Shown: positions 31,474 to 40,963, counted from the first letter of the stretch. The stretch is 64,000 nt of DNA from Hujiaoplasma nucleasis (GCF_013745115.1 NZ_CP051151.1:310001-374000); one strand, 5' to 3'. Program-made: numbers and translations. Notes: generated by a model from the letters alone, not told the origin.

Positions 31474-32393
31474 TTTTAGATACCTATTTAAAAGAATATT
31501 TATATTATCTTAAGATTACAAAGAACTTATCTAAGAATACCATCATTTCTTATGAACGTGATTTAAAATCCTATTTAGACTTTATTAAAACCAATTATAA
31601 AATTAGAGATTTAAATGATATTCATAAGGATCATATTCAAAATTTTTCTAGAAGTTTATCTAGGAAAAATAACTCAAATTCAACCATCACCCGAAAACTG
31701 TCTTCGATAAGATCATTTCATCGTTATTTAATGAGCGAGAATATTGTTGATAAAGACATTTCAAGAAAAGTAAAAAAACCGAAAACTCATAAGTTCTTAC
31801 CAACGGTTTTGAATATGAGAGAAGTAGAAGATATGATTAACTTAACCTACGAAAATAGTGACCCTTTATCTTTAAGAAACCAAGCCTTAATAGAAATTGC
31901 TTATGGTTCAGGTCTTAGGGTTTCTGAATTGCTTAATTTGAGAATTAGTGATTTACATCTGAATAAGGGATTAGTGAATATCCTTGGAAAAGGAAATAAA
32001 GAAAGAATCATTCCTTTAAATGAAAACGCTGTGCTTGCTATACAAAAATATATTATTGAAGCTAGACCCTTATTAAAAGCTAAAAAAGCTGATTTATTAT
32101 TTGTTAATAAATTCGGTCAGCCCCTAAGTCGAGTTGGTTTCTTTAAATTAATTAAAAAGCTTGCCAATGATGTTCATATTCAAAAACAAGTTTCACCTCA
32201 TACTTTAAGGCATTCATATGCGACACACTTGTTAGAAAACGGAGCGGATTTAAGAACTGTTCAAGAACTTTTAGGTCATGAAGATATTTTAACAACAGAG
32301 AATTATACACACGTTTCTAAAAAACGTATTAATAAAATTTATAATGATGCTCATCCAAGAGCATCAAAGAAAGAAGGAGAAAATGAAATATAA
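31470..32393 (+). CDS. xerD: Site-specific tyrosine recombinase XerD
   Basis: Resolves chromosome dimers at dif with XerC. The 307-residue protein has a SAM-like N-terminal domain and a catalytic domain with GSGLRVSELLNL (first Arg, about 146-157), HTLRHSYATHLLENGADLRT (HxxR, about 246-265), LGHED and the nucleophile in ENYTHVS (Tyr about 281). The ending YNDAHPRA matches XerD. The xerD-deoB order is that of B. subtilis and supports XerD over XerC. Confidence 0.9.
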   Translation: MILDTYLKEYLYYLKITKNLSKNTIISYERDLKSYLDFIKTNYKIRDLNDIHKDHIQNFSRSLSRKNNSNSTITRKLSSIRSFHRYLMSENIVDKDISRKVKKPKTHKFLPTVLNMREVEDMINLTYENSDPLSLRNQALIEIAYGSGLRVSELLNLRISDLHLNKGLVNILGKGNKERIIPLNENAVLAIQKYIIEARPLLKAKKADLLFVNKFGQPLSRVGFFKLIKKLANDVHIQKQVSPHTLRHSYATHLLENGADLRTVQELLGHEDILTTENYTHVSKKRINKIYNDAHPRASKKEGENEI

Positions 32394-33561
32394 AAGAATA
32401 TTTTTAATTGTCATTGATTCTGTTGGTGTCGGTGAATTACCAGACGCTGATAAATTTAATGACTTAGGAGCCAATACAATTGCTAATTTAGCTAAAGAAA
32501 CTGGAGGGATTCACCTACCAGTTCTTGAATCTTTTGGTTATGGAAATTTAACAGAAATTCAAGGTGTAAAGCCAGTTCAGCAACCAAGAGCTAATACGAC
32601 TAAAATGATGGAAATATCAAATGGTAAAGATACCATGACTGGCCATTGGGAAATTATGGGTATTAAGACAGTTAAACCATTCAAAACTTTTACTGACTCT
32701 GGATTTCCTCAAGATTTAATTGAAAAGATAGAAGAATTATCATCAAGAAAAGTAATTGGTAATAAATCAGCTTCCGGTACAGAAATATTAAAAGAATTAG
32801 GTCCTGAACAAGAAAAAACTGGTGCTTTAATTGTCTATACTTCAGCTGATTCAGTCCTTCAAATAGCTGCACATGAAGAAGTTATTCCTCTAAAAGAACT
32901 CTATGATATTTGTGAAAAAGTAAGAGAATTAACCTTAGATGAAAAATGGCGTGTAGGTAGAATTATTGCGAGGCCATATCTTGGATCAGAAACAGATGGA
33001 TACAAAAGAACGACCAATAGACATGATTATGCCTTATCTCCTACTTCAAAAACTGTCTTAGATATACTGGCTGAAAATAATTATGATGTTATTTCAGTTG
33101 GGAAAATCAAGGACATCTTTAATGGTTCAGGCATCACTGACCATTATGGCATTAAATCTAATCATGATGGTATGAACAAAGTTATGATGCTAACTGAAAA
33201 AGAATTTACTGGGCTTAATTTTACAAATTTAGTTGACTTTGATGCCCTATATGGACATAGAAGAGATTCTCAAGGATATAAAGAGGCTATGGAAGAGTTT
33301 GATCGTGATTTAGGACAATTAATTACGAAACTAAGAGATGATGACTTATTAATGGTGACTGCTGATCATGGTAATGATCCAACCCATCATGGGACAGACC
33401 ATACTAGAGAATATGTTCCTCTATTTATTTACAATCATAAATTAAAAGGATCATTTTTAGATATTAGTAAAACTTTTGCGGATATTGGACAAACAATAGC
33501 TGACAACTTTGGTTTATCGGGCACTGAAATTGGTACTAGTTTACTAAATGACTTAAAATAA
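32383..33561 (+). CDS. deoB: Phosphopentomutase
   Basis: Interconverts (deoxy)ribose 1- and 5-phosphate, linking DeoD and DeoC activities. The metal and substrate residues are in FLIVIDSVGVGELPDA (start), GKDTMTGHWEIMG (about 84-96), GNKSASGTEI and the C-terminal VTADHGNDPTHHGTDHTRE, typical of the alkaline phosphatase superfamily. AAGGAG before ATG 32383 fixes the start; a frame reaching back to 32344 is inside xerD. The 11-base overlap with xerD suggests coupling. deoC and deoD lie 20 kb away. Confidence 0.95.
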   Translation: MKYKRIFLIVIDSVGVGELPDADKFNDLGANTIANLAKETGGIHLPVLESFGYGNLTEIQGVKPVQQPRANTTKMMEISNGKDTMTGHWEIMGIKTVKPFKTFTDSGFPQDLIEKIEELSSRKVIGNKSASGTEILKELGPEQEKTGALIVYTSADSVLQIAAHEEVIPLKELYDICEKVRELTLDEKWRVGRIIARPYLGSETDGYKRTTNRHDYALSPTSKTVLDILAENNYDVISVGKIKDIFNGSGITDHYGIKSNHDGMNKVMMLTEKEFTGLNFTNLVDFDALYGHRRDSQGYKEAMEEFDRDLGQLITKLRDDDLLMVTADHGNDPTHHGTDHTREYVPLFIYNHKLKGSFLDISKTFADIGQTIADNFGLSGTEIGTSLLNDLK

Positions 33562-33571
33562 AATTTTACAT

Positions 33572-33610
33572 ATTAAAAGGCAAAATTTATAATAAATTTT
33601 GCCTTTTAAT
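33572..33610. terminator. Bidirectional terminator between deoB and the coiled-coil operon
   Basis: ATTAAAAGGCAAAATTTAT and its exact complement flank a single base (33591), giving 19-bp arms with A-rich and T-rich edges that suit both strands. It ends one base before the stop of the minus-strand gene. Confidence 0.88.
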
Positions 33611-36379
33611 TTATATTAGACTAATTTTCTTAGTACTTGCTTTAAGTGCTTTTATGGAAGCTTTCTTTTCTTTTTCATGATTTTTTAAAGTTTGTTTAAT
33701 TAACTTACGAATATTCTTAGATTTTTTTGAGTAGCTAATGTATTCATCAAAGGACTTAATTAAGCTCTTGTAATCATTGTCTAATTCTTGGTTTAATTCA
33801 TTATTATGATCAAGATTATCTAAATAATCTTCTATTAACATGACTAAATCAAATTGATGCTTTTTATTTGCCTTATCTATAAATTCACTAAAGTGAAGGT
33901 CTCTTTGATTAATTTCAGATGTTTTTTCTTTAATAAAAGCGTTCTTTTCTTTGATGGTTTCATCGATTAATAACTGATAACGAGATTGAATACCTCTAAT
34001 CGTATGATTATAAGATTCAGTAACATAGACATAATCTTGATTAATCTTATCTAAAGTATTGTGATATTCATCTTCAAGTCCTTGTACATCGTCTTGGTAA
34101 GTATCTAGTAATTTAAGGATATTCTTTGAATCAAACTTAAGCTGAGACTTAAAATATAAGTCTTTGTAAGCTTCAATTTTATCTTTAACTTTTTCATCTA
34201 GAGTAATTTCAGCATAGAGCATCTTTTCATTAAGACGATTTTTGCTTTCTTGAAGTGATTCATATAATAAATCATCTAAAGGATAAGCATCTTCATCAAC
34301 ATTATCGACAAATTCATTATACTTGATTTCAGCATATCGATAGATTTCATCCATTTCTTCAATGGTAGCATCATAGAGTTTGCTGGCAGAATAATAAGCG
34401 TCTTCTAGATACATATCTAGTTCATCTAATCGTTTTTGATAAAGCATGATTTTTTCATTATTTCGATATTTTCTAAGAATTTCATCAACATGAGCTCTAT
34501 ATTCTTTTTTGACTTCTATTAATGTGTCTTCTAAAAGTTTTTTTAATCCTTTATCATCTGTTTTTTCAATTTCAGATACGATGTCATAAACTTGTTTTTG
34601 ATACTTAGAAAACTCAGACATTGAAGCTTCCTCTTTTAAATTAACTTCATGATTAATCATTTCATAGTAATGAATTCTCTCGCTATCCACATTATGCATG
34701 AGGGCAGTAAGTCTTAATTTTAAATCCTCTTCAGCTAGTTTAATTTGCTCCTTAGCGAATCGCATTTGATTAAGATAAGTAGAAGCAATTAAATCATGAT
34801 TAATTTGGGTTTCAGAGAGTATTCTATTTTGCTGAATTAAAAGCATTCTTTTTTCATTTTGGTACATATGTTTAAAATGTATGGTGTCGATTTCACTTTC
34901 TTTTAAGGCTAAGAGAATATCAGAAGTGCTATTTAAGAGATTAATGTCCATAGAGACTAAATCATGGACATCATGATTAATTAATTGTGTAAATTCAGAT
35001 AAGAATGTTCTTGATAAGTTCTCTTTTTTCATTTGATAATCTATATGAGCGTTCATGAGATCATTTAGGAAAAGAATATACTTTTTATCTCTTTTTAAGG
35101 CTATTTGAGTAGCGTCAATGCTTGATTGATTATCTAGTAAAAAAGTCTTGATATCTTTAACTATATTGATAATATCAATGATTTGAGTGACGAATTTATT
35201 TTCTATAAAATGTACAAACTGGTGTTCATTCATTTTTATTTCATGATTAAGCTGAGCTAGTTTATAAGTAAAATATATATGGTATTTTAAGGCTTTATTC
35301 ATTTTATATAATCTAGTAAAATCAACTTCCTTAGTAACAATACGACTACCATTATCATAAAATAATTGAGCTAAAAATGGATCTGTTTTATAGAAGTTCA
35401 TATATAAATCTAAACTTTTTTTCATCTCCATAATTGATAATTCATTGTTTATTTTAAAATCTTTAATAATGGATTTCTTATCTTTAATTAGAGTTTTTAC
35501 TTTTCTTTTACCAAATTTTTCTGCTTGGCTTTGATCGTTTGTTTTTTTGTATTTAATATGATAATAGTGATTATATGCCTCTTCAACTTCAGAAGTGTAA
35601 TTATCTATTAATCTTTTTTCTTGTTTATGTAGGAAACTTTGATATCGAGTGAATTGCTTTTGTTTTTCTTCAGTAAGTTGTTTAATATTTTCAGAATAAG
35701 GGTCTTCATTGATAGAAAAATTAATTTGACTTTCAGTTAAGTTTTTAATTTCAATATCAAAAAACTCATCTAAAATTTCCTCTTTAAATGTTTTCGTTGT
35801 AATTAATTTTTTGATATCTTCATCAATTGAAGCAATCTTTTGGTCTAAAGCTGAAAATTCTTCAATAATTTCAGTAAAATGTTTCTCTATTGTATAATTA
35901 ATAGTTTCACTCTTTTGCCTTAAGTAATCATGGTTACTTTGAACATTTTCAATAGTACCTGACAAAAAGTGTTTATAGGAAGTGAAATACTCCATATTAG
36001 ATTCAACCAATTGATTATGTAAGTATTCTATAGAAAAAACTCTTTCTTCTAAATCATCTATTTCAAATTGAAAGACTTCGTAATGGTTATTGTGAATTTT
36101 CCTTAGGCCATCAGAGATAATCTTTTGTTTTTCTACAATCATATGTTCATCATGATTAATGATAGATTCTGTCAATTCTTGTGCTCGTTTACGAATATCA
36201 GTTAATGATTCACTAATATCCTTTAAATTATTAATGGTAATTTGTCGATTGCTATTGATTTTATGTTCTATATTCTTATGAAGATCGTCGAAAAATGATA
36301 ATTCATCTTTTGATGATTTATCAAATTTGTCTTGATATTGCTTGGCGTTATAAATATCTTTATCGATCTTTTGAGACAA
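33611..36379 (-). CDS. Very large coiled-coil protein B, function unknown
   Basis: About 923 residues, almost wholly charged helix (Asp, Glu, Lys, Asn, Gln) with long heptad-like stretches; no signal peptide, membrane segment, Walker motif, Trp-rich or Cys-rich part. The tail is basic (ASIKALKASTKKISLI). The frame is open back to 36451, but AGGAGG with TTG 36379 six bases on is a strong start. That SD overlaps the stop of the upstream gene (TAGGAGG). The second gene of a two-gene operon. I do not recognise it; it could be a cytoskeletal or nucleoid-associated filament protein, which is inference only. Confidence 0.75.
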   Translation of the reverse strand: MSQKIDKDIYNAKQYQDKFDKSSKDELSFFDDLHKNIEHKINSNRQITINNLKDISESLTDIRKRAQELTESIINHDEHMIVEKQKIISDGLRKIHNNHYEVFQFEIDDLEERVFSIEYLHNQLVESNMEYFTSYKHFLSGTIENVQSNHDYLRQKSETINYTIEKHFTEIIEEFSALDQKIASIDEDIKKLITTKTFKEEILDEFFDIEIKNLTESQINFSINEDPYSENIKQLTEEKQKQFTRYQSFLHKQEKRLIDNYTSEVEEAYNHYYHIKYKKTNDQSQAEKFGKRKVKTLIKDKKSIIKDFKINNELSIMEMKKSLDLYMNFYKTDPFLAQLFYDNGSRIVTKEVDFTRLYKMNKALKYHIYFTYKLAQLNHEIKMNEHQFVHFIENKFVTQIIDIINIVKDIKTFLLDNQSSIDATQIALKRDKKYILFLNDLMNAHIDYQMKKENLSRTFLSEFTQLINHDVHDLVSMDINLLNSTSDILLALKESEIDTIHFKHMYQNEKRMLLIQQNRILSETQINHDLIASTYLNQMRFAKEQIKLAEEDLKLRLTALMHNVDSERIHYYEMINHEVNLKEEASMSEFSKYQKQVYDIVSEIEKTDDKGLKKLLEDTLIEVKKEYRAHVDEILRKYRNNEKIMLYQKRLDELDMYLEDAYYSASKLYDATIEEMDEIYRYAEIKYNEFVDNVDEDAYPLDDLLYESLQESKNRLNEKMLYAEITLDEKVKDKIEAYKDLYFKSQLKFDSKNILKLLDTYQDDVQGLEDEYHNTLDKINQDYVYVTESYNHTIRGIQSRYQLLIDETIKEKNAFIKEKTSEINQRDLHFSEFIDKANKKHQFDLVMLIEDYLDNLDHNNELNQELDNDYKSLIKSFDEYISYSKKSKNIRKLIKQTLKNHEKEKKASIKALKASTKKISLI

Positions 36380-36389
36380 AATATTCCTC

Positions 36390-39300
36390 CTATGAATTAA
36401 TAATTCTATCTTGCTTGTTTTGAGATGTTCGATTACTTTCTTTGATGTCATCCATTTTAGATTTCGTTCTTTGGATGACTTCTTGGTGAATTATATTGGT
36501 TTTATCAATAATTGATTCTTCAACGCAAATTAAATCTTTTAATGGTTGATCTAATTCTTTATCATAACCAAGTGTTGATTTAATTGAATCATTTTTATAA
36601 TCTCTATGTAATGATATAAACAAATCATTGGTTTGAATGTATTCATTTAAATATTCTTTTTCAAGTGTTTGATGTTTTAAATAAAGTTTTCTAAAGTCTT
36701 CAAAGAGTTTTTCTTCAACATCTTTAATTTTTTCTTCAAGTAAAGGTACTTTTACAAATTTATCACGTTCTACCTTGCTAAGTTTGATATTTAAAGAATC
36801 TTGATAATCCTGGAAGACATTCTGGTAATTAAGTTTTAGGTTAAGAAGTCTTGTTTGTCTTTCAGCTGGAATAATATTTGCTTGTGAAACTAATTGTGCT
36901 TTGGTAGTATTAATATTTTCAATCTCTTGTTCAGTAATATAATCTATGTATTGATTTTCAACTTCAGCATCAAAAATAATTTTATGTTTGCTTTTATTAA
37001 TAAATACTTTTTCTTGTTCGTAGTCATCCATCATTAATTGATACTGATATAAAACTTCTTGATTAATTTTCTTAATAAGTTGTTTTAGGGACTTATCATT
37101 TTCTTTAACTGCTTTTAAAACGTAAGTTTTGAGTGCCTCAATCGAAGCCTCTTTATCATTAGCGTATTTTTTAAATTGTTCTTGCTGATCATTAAGGTTT
37201 TTACTTAGCCAATGATTTAAGTCTTCTGACATATGAGACAACAGTTCTTGTTGTTTTTTTATTTTGTCTTGTAAATTTAAAGTTTTTTCTTCTAAATGAT
37301 CAAATTCACGATCAATAATTTCTTTTTGTTCATCTGAATGAACTTTAACCATAGCTATTTTTTCAATGAAATAATCTTTCATTTGACCATGTATATTTTC
37401 AACCACTTGTGTAAAGAAGGTAAGAGAAGAATTAAGGGTATCAATGACGTATATGATGTAATCACTGAGATTTTGAAAGGCTTTATCTTTGTTTTTCATG
37501 TAGGTTAATCTATCAATAGTAGCAATAGAGTTTTCAGTAAAAACATAGAGTTGGTCGTCATAATAATTATTAATTCTATCAATTAAAGAAGAAGCATGAT
37601 GATCATATGCATATTTTAAAACATCATAATAGATGTTTGTAAGTGTAATTAAAACATCCTTAAAATCAGCTTGTTTAATCAGCATATCATTGATTTGCAC
37701 TTGGTTATTGTGTAGGTCTAGTAATTGCTTTTTTTTAAGTAAATCTAATTTCATTATTTGTGATTTAAAATTTAATATTTTTTCATGTTTTTCTTGATAT
37801 GAATCAATTAAATTTTGACTCATGAGTGAAGTTTTTTTAGAATAATTGTTATCTAGTTGTTGGTGCAATGTAAGTCTATTTTTTTCAAAGTAGGTAAGGC
37901 TTGAATAAGTCTTAGCTTTTTCAGATAAGTAATCTATAAATTCTTTGCTTTCATTAGAGTTTAGCTCAATATTTCTATTCGTTTTTTGAATGAGATTGTT
38001 TAAGAATTGTTCTTTCCTTTTTATTTTAGACATATTGATGCTTTCATAATCAAAAAAGCCTTTAACTAGGTAATAATTTCTAGCTTTTAAAGACTGCGTA
38101 ATTCTTTCTTTCATTATTTTCATGAAAGCTTCTAACATATTGGTTTGACTCGAGTAAAAAAGATCTAATTTTGATTGATAAAATTCATAAAAATCCCTAT
38201 GAACTCTTGTTTCTAGGTTATTGATTGCATGATTAAAGTCTTTCTGCATATCTAAACTGGCTTTGTCTTCTTCTAAGCGGATGGCTGATTGATATATTTC
38301 ATGTGTTTTATCAACATATAATTTATGAATGTTAATTGATTTTAATCTAGTCTTCATTTGTTTTTGTGCAAGCTTATAATCTGTGTTAAGGGTTTCTAAA
38401 AACTTAATGTAATCACCCTTAATGTCAACATTAAGGATTTCTTTTTTTATCTCAGCAATCTCTAAACGGTTTTTTGATTCTAAAGTGATGATTTCATTGG
38501 CTATTTCATCAATATGGTATAAAAGTTGTGATAATTTATCAGTTGTCTTTTTTATTAAACCAACAAAGTTACTTTGGTAATCAGCCAAGTCTTTCTTAAT
38601 TTTCAAGACTTCGTCATCTCTAATCTCATTAAATTCTTGAGAGAATCCGATAAGTTCAGATAATAATTTATCTAAGTCATTAAAACCTTGATTAAAATAG
38701 AAATTATAGTTTGAGTAAATATTGATGGCATTTTCAATATACTTAATAGGAACAGCATATGAAAACTTAATTTCTTCATTTCTTGTAAATGCTTCAACTT
38801 TAATTTCTTTAATACGACTTTGATAAGTAGATATATTGTAATTTGTTATTTTTTCAATTTTATCAATAAGGTAATTGGCTTTGTTTTCAAGAGTTTCAAC
38901 TTGTAAGATGTATTTTTCAAGATCATCAGAACGATGTTCTTCATAAGCTTTCAAAATAAAAGGATATAGTTTATTTTGAGATTTTAAAAGGTCTTCTTTA
39001 ATAATTCTTTGATATTTTATTTTATTATTATTGGCTATTCTTATTTGTTTGATTAATTTTTGAATAAGTTTTTGATTAATTTCACTGTATGGTTTTTGTT
39101 TAATATCACTAATACTATAAATGTCTTCTTTATAGGCATTTAGTTTTTGTGAACTTTGTTTGAATGCTGCATTAATATCATTTCTAGTACCTCTTAAACT
39201 TGTCAATGATTGAAGTATTTTTTGGTTTAAAGAAATTAAGTCATCTTTATCAATTTTAGATAAATCATTTTTTAATTGAGTAATAGCATTTTTTGATTTT

Positions 39301-39836
39301 TCTATAGTCCATATCATTTTGTTGCTAACTTGGGCTGATAATTCATCATAGGAATTTTTAAAAGAAAGAAGTTTTTTCTGTTCTTTTTCTATAAAAATAT
39401 GATGTACTTTCATATCTTCATCAATTGATAAGTTATTCTTTTTGGTAAGATTTAAATAGATATCTAGTGCATCTTGTTTGCGACTTTCGAATTGTTCAAT
39501 AATATTTTCAAATAGCTTATTTTCTTCATTTACTTTATTGTCTAGTTGAGTCATTTGATCATGGATGTCTTGGTTAAATTCATATCTAATTTCTTTAAAC
39601 TTTGCTTCTATAATAGTTTGATTCTGAGTAAAATCAGTGAATTCTTTATCCATTTGATCTAAGTAATCGTTTTGATTTTGTAGGAGTTGATTTTCCAATG
39701 CTTTGATGTTATTGTCATAATTTGTTTTTTCATTAAGAAAAGACCGTTTAAGATCTTGTAAACGGTTAAGTGATTGAGATTCAAATTCGGGATATGCTTT
39801 TTTATATTTTATTAAGATATCGCCTTTACTTGCCAT
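36390..39836 (-). CDS. Very large coiled-coil protein A, function unknown
   Basis: A 1148-residue protein with the same make-up as its neighbour: continuous charged helix broken by short aromatic-rich stretches (for example NIYSNYNFYFNQGFNDLDKL and YAYDHHASSLIDRINNYYDD). One Cys, no ATP-binding motif, no membrane segment. It is not an SMC protein, since both ATPase ends are missing. AAGGAG lies six bases before the ATG and a consensus promoter lies upstream. It may be distantly related to protein B by duplication; I could not align them convincingly by eye. Function unknown. Confidence 0.8.
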   Translation of the reverse strand: MASKGDILIKYKKAYPEFESQSLNRLQDLKRSFLNEKTNYDNNIKALENQLLQNQNDYLDQMDKEFTDFTQNQTIIEAKFKEIRYEFNQDIHDQMTQLDNKVNEENKLFENIIEQFESRKQDALDIYLNLTKKNNLSIDEDMKVHHIFIEKEQKKLLSFKNSYDELSAQVSNKMIWTIEKSKNAITQLKNDLSKIDKDDLISLNQKILQSLTSLRGTRNDINAAFKQSSQKLNAYKEDIYSISDIKQKPYSEINQKLIQKLIKQIRIANNNKIKYQRIIKEDLLKSQNKLYPFILKAYEEHRSDDLEKYILQVETLENKANYLIDKIEKITNYNISTYQSRIKEIKVEAFTRNEEIKFSYAVPIKYIENAINIYSNYNFYFNQGFNDLDKLLSELIGFSQEFNEIRDDEVLKIKKDLADYQSNFVGLIKKTTDKLSQLLYHIDEIANEIITLESKNRLEIAEIKKEILNVDIKGDYIKFLETLNTDYKLAQKQMKTRLKSINIHKLYVDKTHEIYQSAIRLEEDKASLDMQKDFNHAINNLETRVHRDFYEFYQSKLDLFYSSQTNMLEAFMKIMKERITQSLKARNYYLVKGFFDYESINMSKIKRKEQFLNNLIQKTNRNIELNSNESKEFIDYLSEKAKTYSSLTYFEKNRLTLHQQLDNNYSKKTSLMSQNLIDSYQEKHEKILNFKSQIMKLDLLKKKQLLDLHNNQVQINDMLIKQADFKDVLITLTNIYYDVLKYAYDHHASSLIDRINNYYDDQLYVFTENSIATIDRLTYMKNKDKAFQNLSDYIIYVIDTLNSSLTFFTQVVENIHGQMKDYFIEKIAMVKVHSDEQKEIIDREFDHLEEKTLNLQDKIKKQQELLSHMSEDLNHWLSKNLNDQQEQFKKYANDKEASIEALKTYVLKAVKENDKSLKQLIKKINQEVLYQYQLMMDDYEQEKVFINKSKHKIIFDAEVENQYIDYITEQEIENINTTKAQLVSQANIIPAERQTRLLNLKLNYQNVFQDYQDSLNIKLSKVERDKFVKVPLLEEKIKDVEEKLFEDFRKLYLKHQTLEKEYLNEYIQTNDLFISLHRDYKNDSIKSTLGYDKELDQPLKDLICVEESIIDKTNIIHQEVIQRTKSKMDDIKESNRTSQNKQDRIINS

Positions 39837-39866: not shown

Positions 39867-39895
39867 ATTATAATATAATCATAGTTATTTATCAA
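39867..39895 (-). promoter_or_regulatory. Promoter of the coiled-coil operon (TTGATA-17-TATAAT)
   Basis: On the minus strand TTGATA (39895-39890) and TATAAT (39872-39867) are exactly 17 bases apart. The leader to the ATG is short and contains AAGGAG. This points to a well-expressed operon. Confidence 0.8.
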
Positions 39896-39943: not shown

Positions 39944-39958
39944 AGTATTGAGGTGTAT

Positions 39959-40963
39959 ATGGACAAGAGAATAATTACAAGTGACCTACTGATTGATGAA
40001 GAAGTAGAAGGAACACTTAGACCCCAATATTTTAATGAGTATATAGGGCAAAAAGATGTTAAAGAAATGATTGAAATAGCAGTTAAAGCGGCAAAAAAAA
40101 GACATGAATCTTTGGATCATGTTCTTTTATATGGCCCTCCAGGGTTAGGTAAAACGACTTTGGCTCAAGTTATTGCTAATGAATTAGATGTAAATATGAA
40201 ATTTGTGAGTGGACCTACCGTTGAAAGAACAGGAGATTTAGCTGCTATTTTAACCTCTTTGGAAGCTGGTGATGTTTTATTTATTGATGAGATTCATCGT
40301 TTACCTAAGATAGTTGAAGAAATTTTATATTCTTCTATGGAAGATTATGTCATTGATATTGTTGTTGGAAAAGATGCTGGTGCTAAATCAATAAGGGTAG
40401 ATTTATCGCCATTTACACTGATTGGTGCAACGACTAGATTCGGTGATTTAACAGGTCCACTAAGAGATAGGTTTGGTATTATACATAAACTTGAGTTTTA
40501 TTCTGATAAAGATTTAGAAACTATATGTAAAAGAACGGCAGGCATTTATCAGTGTGATACAGAAGATTTGGCTGTTATTGAACTTGCTAAAAGAAGCCGC
40601 GGTACTCCTCGGATAGTCAATCGTTTATTTAGAAGGGTTAGAGATTTTGCTGATATTTTAGGTGATGGTTATATAAGTTTAGATATTACAAAAAAGGCTT
40701 TAGATAAGCTTAGAATAGATGATATGGGCTTAGATAATAAGGACAGAGAGTACTTGATTGGAATTATTGAAAAATATCATGGTGGTCCTGTGGGTTTGGA
40801 TACGATTGCAACATCTATTTCTGAAGATCCTACAACTTTAGAAGATGTTTATGAACCTTATTTAATTCAGCAAGGTTTTATAAGTCGTACTCCAAGAGGT
40901 CGGGTTGTGACTGAGAAGGCCTATAAACATCTAAAAAAATCATATCAAGGAGCTTTATTTTAA
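39959..40963 (+). CDS. ruvB: Holliday junction helicase motor RuvB
   Basis: AAA+ motor that drives branch migration. The 334-residue protein starts [17 protein letters not shown], has Walker [16 protein letters not shown] (about 58-72), Walker [12 protein letters not shown], sensor IGATTR and the winged-helix C-terminus with [12 protein letters not shown] 39959 follows GAGGTG; the in-frame GTG 39953 lies in that SD. ruvA is not adjacent. The stop overlaps queA (TAATG), giving the conserved ruvB-queA-tgt grouping with interruptions. Confidence 0.97.

Follow-up and report, generated by a model that had tools for sequence, protein, structure and literature searches.

A giant straight-helix protein pair beside ruvB in Izemoplasmatales and its possible structural role

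What do two giant genes, set between deoB and ruvB, do for Hujiaoplasma nucleasis? The window that we analysed is a stretch of 64,000 nucleotides (NZ_CP051151.1:310001-374000, positions counted from its first letter). It comes from a genome of 1.81 Mb in a single contig, which belongs to the order Izemoplasmatales and whose nearest named relatives are 'Mycoplasmatota bacterium zrk2' and Candidatus Izemoplasmatales MAGs. The question is of some importance, as this core, vertically kept pair occupies 6.2 kb of the 1.8 Mb genome and is unmatched in the libraries that we searched. It also provides a concrete handle on the cell organisation of free-living wall-less bacteria, in an order that has cultured members.

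A coupled gene pair and its distribution

Gene A (36390..39836, minus strand) begins with ATG and encodes a giant straight-helix protein of 1148 aa. Gene B (33611..36379, minus strand) begins with TTG at 36379 and encodes a giant helical protein of 922 aa. Together they form a two-gene unit between deoB (32344..33561, plus strand), the convergent neighbour in most Izemoplasmatales, and ruvB (39953..40963, plus strand), the divergent neighbour and the positional anchor in all families. The two genes meet at a coupling site (36377..36392, minus strand). Here the junction reads TTCATAGGAGGAATATTTTG on the minus strand, with the TAG stop of A passing straight into GGAGG, the Shine–Dalgarno (SD) sequence of B, and then the TTG start of B. 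Because this SD directly follows the stop of A, we prefer the 922-aa reading of B. A 946-aa frame from 36451 was rejected; it overlaps A and its start does not lie at the SD.

An 18-pair hairpin between B and deoB (33572..33610, assigned to neither strand) is probably a terminator shared by the two genes. On the other side, a promoter-like TTGATA-17-TATAAT (39867..39895, minus strand) is located some 30 nt upstream of A and matches the consensus at 11 of 12 positions. The region holds 39 promoter-like matches, compared with 49 ± 6 in shuffled sequence. There is no excess over chance, therefore it is by its position that the promoter of A is plausible. A preliminary description of this DNA had reported the giant pair between convergent deoB and divergent ruvB, the TAGGAGG that joins the stop of A to the SD of B, and a strong signal towards deoB, and all of these are where it placed them. 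The consensus promoter that it also reported is present as a sequence, but loses its statistical distinction.

The pair sits at one fixed place in nearly all Izemoplasmatales, in all three families by synteny. The profile searches for synteny and co-occurrence that had been proposed for it bear this out in two of the families. In the family of the window genome (f1), which covers 11 genera, A is found in 32 of 34 genomes and B in 33 of 34, with all 11 genera represented, and the two are adjacent in every genome whose contigs permit checking. In a second family (f2) profiles detect B in most genomes, with A adjoining. Profiles miss the pair in the third (f3), where the ruvB neighbourhood of three genomes shows a pair of 1113–1129 and 931–971 aa; a full-length hhalign comparison of B from f3 and f1 gives a probability of 97%, against 0.4% for a reversed control. 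In 34 of 36 other loci, A and B are spaced by −26 to +45 nt. The site is a fixed part of the core genome and the pattern is vertical.

Comparisons of close pairs give dN/dS values of 0.04–0.14, which indicate that selection on both A and B is purifying. Given these values and conservation in 11 genera, A and B are not chance reading frames. Among 17 A proteins of f1, with identities down to ~20%, we find nine distinct internal gaps, each of at most 4 aa; the neighbouring ruvB and deoB products are 69–90% identical across the same loci. B in the genus of the window genome is without 51 residues that are found in other genera. This corresponds to 14 turns at the period of B described below, so in this single event the hydrophobic stripe would stay in phase; internal indels are too few for statistics on phase preservation. 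That said, the pair appears to be dispensable in some lineages, as judged from two f2 genomes. In one there is an apparent clean deletion of A and B, which leaves deoB 11 bp from ruvB (G063; L147:4239-6454), and in the other a single 702-aa helical ORF with a period of 3.63 stands in place of the pair (G065; L150:10680-12788). We also note helical ORFs of 609–614 aa, low in Gly and Pro, directly upstream of ruvB and in the same direction (L062:7563-9407 and L152:4965-6794).

Acholeplasmatales carry a possible counterpart. This is a single gene, C, of 1075–1255 aa and divergent from ruvAB, at 28 loci in families f12, f16 and f22 (a few of these overlap, and a few lie on contigs that stop short of ruvB or of the neighbour on the other side). 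The C proteins contain 0.9–2.6% Gly, Pro, Trp and Cys together. The neighbour of C is obgE in f12 and f16. In f22, C is convergent with or adjoins an ftsZ-like gene (L044, L059, L172, L173, L175, L176, L178, L182 and L190). C lies at the same genomic position as A and B and is oriented like them, and it resembles them in size, hydrophobic period and layout; on these grounds it is probably a relative. HMM-HMM scores look significant at first, but we do not claim homology, because reversed-sequence controls score near the real comparisons with C: the scores are 144 for A–C against 127–137 for the controls, and 79 for B–C against 62. The A–B score is 127, against 70–74 for reversed controls, and a scan in 90-column windows detected no conserved-core match between A and B. 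A shared motif suspected by eye (A ~337, B ~536) is unsupported by the same scan.

The hydrophobic period and layout of the proteins

Both proteins are highly charged, with 31–33% DEKR, 0.8% Gly and 0.3–0.6% Pro. A hydropathy scan detected no hydrophobic segment, membrane anchor or signal peptide in either (the maximum Kyte–Doolittle values over 19 residues are 1.25 for A and 1.19 for B), and the N-termini are charged. No recognisable domain was found in Pfam, NCBIfam, PHROGs or PADLOC, and nothing convincing came from profiles of the PDB. Neither the single proteins nor 22-member alignments of them match Pfam. An ABC-type ATPase head (Walker A, signature and Walker B) has no match in Pfam, NCBIfam or PADLOC, and the domain-library searches found no DNA-binding domain. 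These scans agree with the preliminary description, which saw almost pure helix free of ATPase, membrane or secretion features; they also gave no profile match to SbcC, SMC or M protein, the kinds of known family that it had named as matches that would speak against its reading.

In spectral analysis, the hydrophobic residues recur with a period of 3.615–3.635 in 39 of 39 A proteins and 3.605–3.63 in 25 of 25 C proteins. For B, the median is 3.615–3.62 in each subfamily, with a weaker and more scattered signal in f2 (3.55–3.74). In 300 shuffles that keep the composition, the value of A or B from the window is never reached. The autocorrelation has peaks at lags 7, 11, 18, 22, 29 and 58 but none at 28, with lags 11, 18 and 29 strong and 14 and 21 weak, as an even stripe of period 29/8 would give. 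Power at the two-stranded heptad period of 3.5 (7/2) is near background, with the peak at 3.61–3.63. Controls from the same genomes behave differently, with 3.53 for the coil of JetC, an SMC-like protein, and ~3.49 for RecN-like coils. The pair had been described as coiled coils. The proteins are indeed giant and almost entirely helical, but they are not ordinary heptad coils, their period being ~3.62 and not 3.5. The period of a straight stripe also provides a simple sequence test for giant helical proteins that homology searches miss.

An alpha-helix free of distortion makes one turn every 3.63 residues (PMC9858780), so a stripe with a period of ~3.62 runs straight along its helix. Straight-stripe packing needs either small (Ala) cores or higher oligomers (PMC9858780). 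In A and B the centre of the hydrophobic face is poor in Ala (~0.03–0.07), has ILVM at ~0.34–0.42 and is rich in FYW. With a straight stripe, such cores favour straight bundles of at least three helices over dimers like those of FilP and Scy.

In A, B and C alike, the N- and C-terminal arms carry a strong periodic signal that disappears in the centre. In A the arms cover about 1–440 and 800–1120, leaving an aperiodic centre of about 440–800. The most conserved blocks (A ~320–480, B ~481–560) lie at or beside the aperiodic centres, as expected of specific docking sites. AlphaFold2 models of A and B consist of helices only, with single helices of up to 330 aa. Local confidence is fair (mean pLDDT 74–79) and global confidence is poor (pTM 0.34–0.38), thus helix packing is not predicted. 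Foldseek searches with both models returned generic long-arm matches only, to SMC and MukB arms.

Possible roles of the pair

We lean towards the view that A and B make up a structural assembly in the cytoplasm, with two kinds of subunit and no enzymatic role, either a straight-rod scaffold or a filament. A scaffold is the best reading of a coupled pair of fixed length that has the straight-rod signature and lacks catalytic, membrane or secretion features. In such an assembly, each protein would have two long straight arms that flank a central hub. The stripes may pack as straight, non-supercoiled bundles, probably of at least three helices contributed by A and B together, and these bundles would form rigid rods. 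That lengths are held while sequence drifts is our clue that the rods would be of fixed length. As a scaffold or filament, they could then help to organise the cell, e.g. in shape, division or nucleoid placing. The preliminary description had proposed a structural role in a possibly wall-less cell. This is plausible for a conserved pair under selection in a wall-less lineage, but the filament is conjectural, and the observations that follow weaken the link with wall-lessness.

Could the pair be a replacement cytoskeleton, gained for mechanical stability after the loss of peptidoglycan? Its lineage would suit this: mraY is found in 0 of 90 Izemoplasmatales genomes, a convincing MreB is missing from the window genome and nearly all of f1, and cultured relatives are wall-less cocci (PMC8397711). 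However, at least 10 f22 genomes (Acholeplasmatales) have both C and mraY, and several f2 genomes have three mreB-like genes alongside A and B. If C is homologous, presence does not track the loss of either wall or MreB, and we regard this explanation as unlikely. The mreB-like triplets are arranged in tandem (G079, G080, G082, G045, G046, G051 and G061, all f2), in an order without mraY. A rod that organises the nucleoid, taking over part of the role of SMC as a non-ATPase chromosome scaffold, strikes us as slightly less probable still. SMC (TIGR02168) is missing from all 8 fully scored genomes with A, B or C. Across the class, where scoring was limited to two candidates per genome, it is present in 180 of 395 genomes; these include a single f2 genome (G076, possibly contamination) and none from f1, f12, f16 or f22. 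The place beside ruvAB is also kept in two orders. Yet gene neighbourhood alone is weak evidence for a nucleoid role, and A and B have no ATPase or DNA-binding domain. Families f5, f7 and f9 also lack SMC, and no giant gene is seen beside ruvB in f5 and f9 (the f7 stretch is too short to tell). Moreover, the window genome encodes JetC, the SMC-like subunit of Wadjet type I (PADLOC PDLC00519, 993 bits), outside the window at L192:832-4074 (G000:C1 about 282000-284000). A JetC-like ORF is also found in G015 (L193).

The stripe itself could be read in another way, as that of a membrane-surface protein that would rest on the inner leaflet, like an apolipoprotein, and coat the membrane or bend it. 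A period of 3.62 suits a straight surface helix, and A finds its best PDB sequence-profile matches in apolipoprotein A-I and apolipophorin III (E 0.002–0.004), although these matches are weak and expected of any amphipathic helix. Basic residues at the polar/non-polar interface, the mark of class-A helices, were not found in A or B: Lys and Arg are not enriched beside the hydrophobic face and rise smoothly towards the polar pole. The lack of such clustering along the edges favours bundles over class-A membrane helices. The face is also rich in aromatic residues, and neither protein has a hydrophobic anchor. A membrane coat is accordingly given a low probability, on a par with the nucleoid rod. 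Least probable by far is that A and B are divergent relatives of a known coiled-coil ATPase, an M-like surface protein, or a phage or mobile gene. Foldseek does select the long arms of SMC and MukB, but TM-scores by query length are at most 0.18 among the SMC-type matches, there is no ATPase head or signal peptide, the genes keep their core-genome position and vertical pattern, and Pfam, NCBIfam, PHROGs and PADLOC hold no match.

Taking the structural assembly as our preferred reading, a broader proposal can be made. The A and B pair, or the single C, may represent an undescribed bacterial structural system, a giant straight-stripe rod ancestral to Izemoplasmatales and Acholeplasmatales that would serve as an internal fixed-length scaffold and help to organise the cell or nucleoid in lineages from which SMC has been lost. 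In this full form we offer it as a speculation with the odds against it. The lack of SMC in the lineages of A, B and C raises a second question, beside that of the role of the pair. We found no description of A or B in the titles, abstracts and selected passages of the literature searched, including papers on Izemoplasma and Acholeplasma coiled coils.

Comparison with known systems

The giant, non-enzymatic helical HMW cytadherence proteins of Mycoplasma are coiled coils of another wall-less cell. They belong to a different order, A and B match no Pfam or NCBIfam profile, and any likeness would be one of general description. The SMC, MukB, JetC and RecN proteins share long helical arms with A and B and are the top Foldseek matches, but carry an ATPase head that A and B lack, and JetC and RecN-like coils from the same genomes have periods of 3.49–3.53, compared with 3.62. 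Apolipoprotein A-I and apolipophorin III are similarly amphipathic, with a nearly straight stripe. They are, however, much smaller secreted lipid carriers whose faces differ in charge pattern. M proteins and surface adhesins have a signal peptide or a membrane anchor, neither of which is present in A or B.

Closer comparisons are found among structural rods. FilP and Scy are hendecad-rich coiled-coil cytoskeletal proteins of Streptomyces, with Scy exceeding 1000 residues (PMC9858780). Like A and B, they are very long bacterial helical rods with no enzymatic domain and a period near that of the undistorted helix (PMC9858780). The differences are several. FilP and Scy have a DivIVA-type N-terminal motif, for which A and B have no match among Pfam profiles; their dimers are Ala-rich, whereas the alanine-rich hendecad core is not found in the Ala-poor A and B; their period is 11/3 and not 29/8; and A and B, unlike them, are encoded as a neighbouring pair. 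SF-assemblin, from the striated fibres of algae, is a structural rod that shares the 29-residue spacing (29/8 = 3.625) with A and B (PMC8435291). Its unit is four heptads and a skip residue, where A and B have an even straight stripe, and at 34 kDa it is about a third of their size. No Pfam match to SF-assemblin was found in A or B.

A and B thus lack the defining features that we tested of heptad coiled coils, FilP and Scy, SMC, M-like proteins and class-A helices. They are a new family among structural helical rods, one that none of the searched libraries names. In how they work they may resemble, at most, other giant non-enzymatic helical scaffolds.
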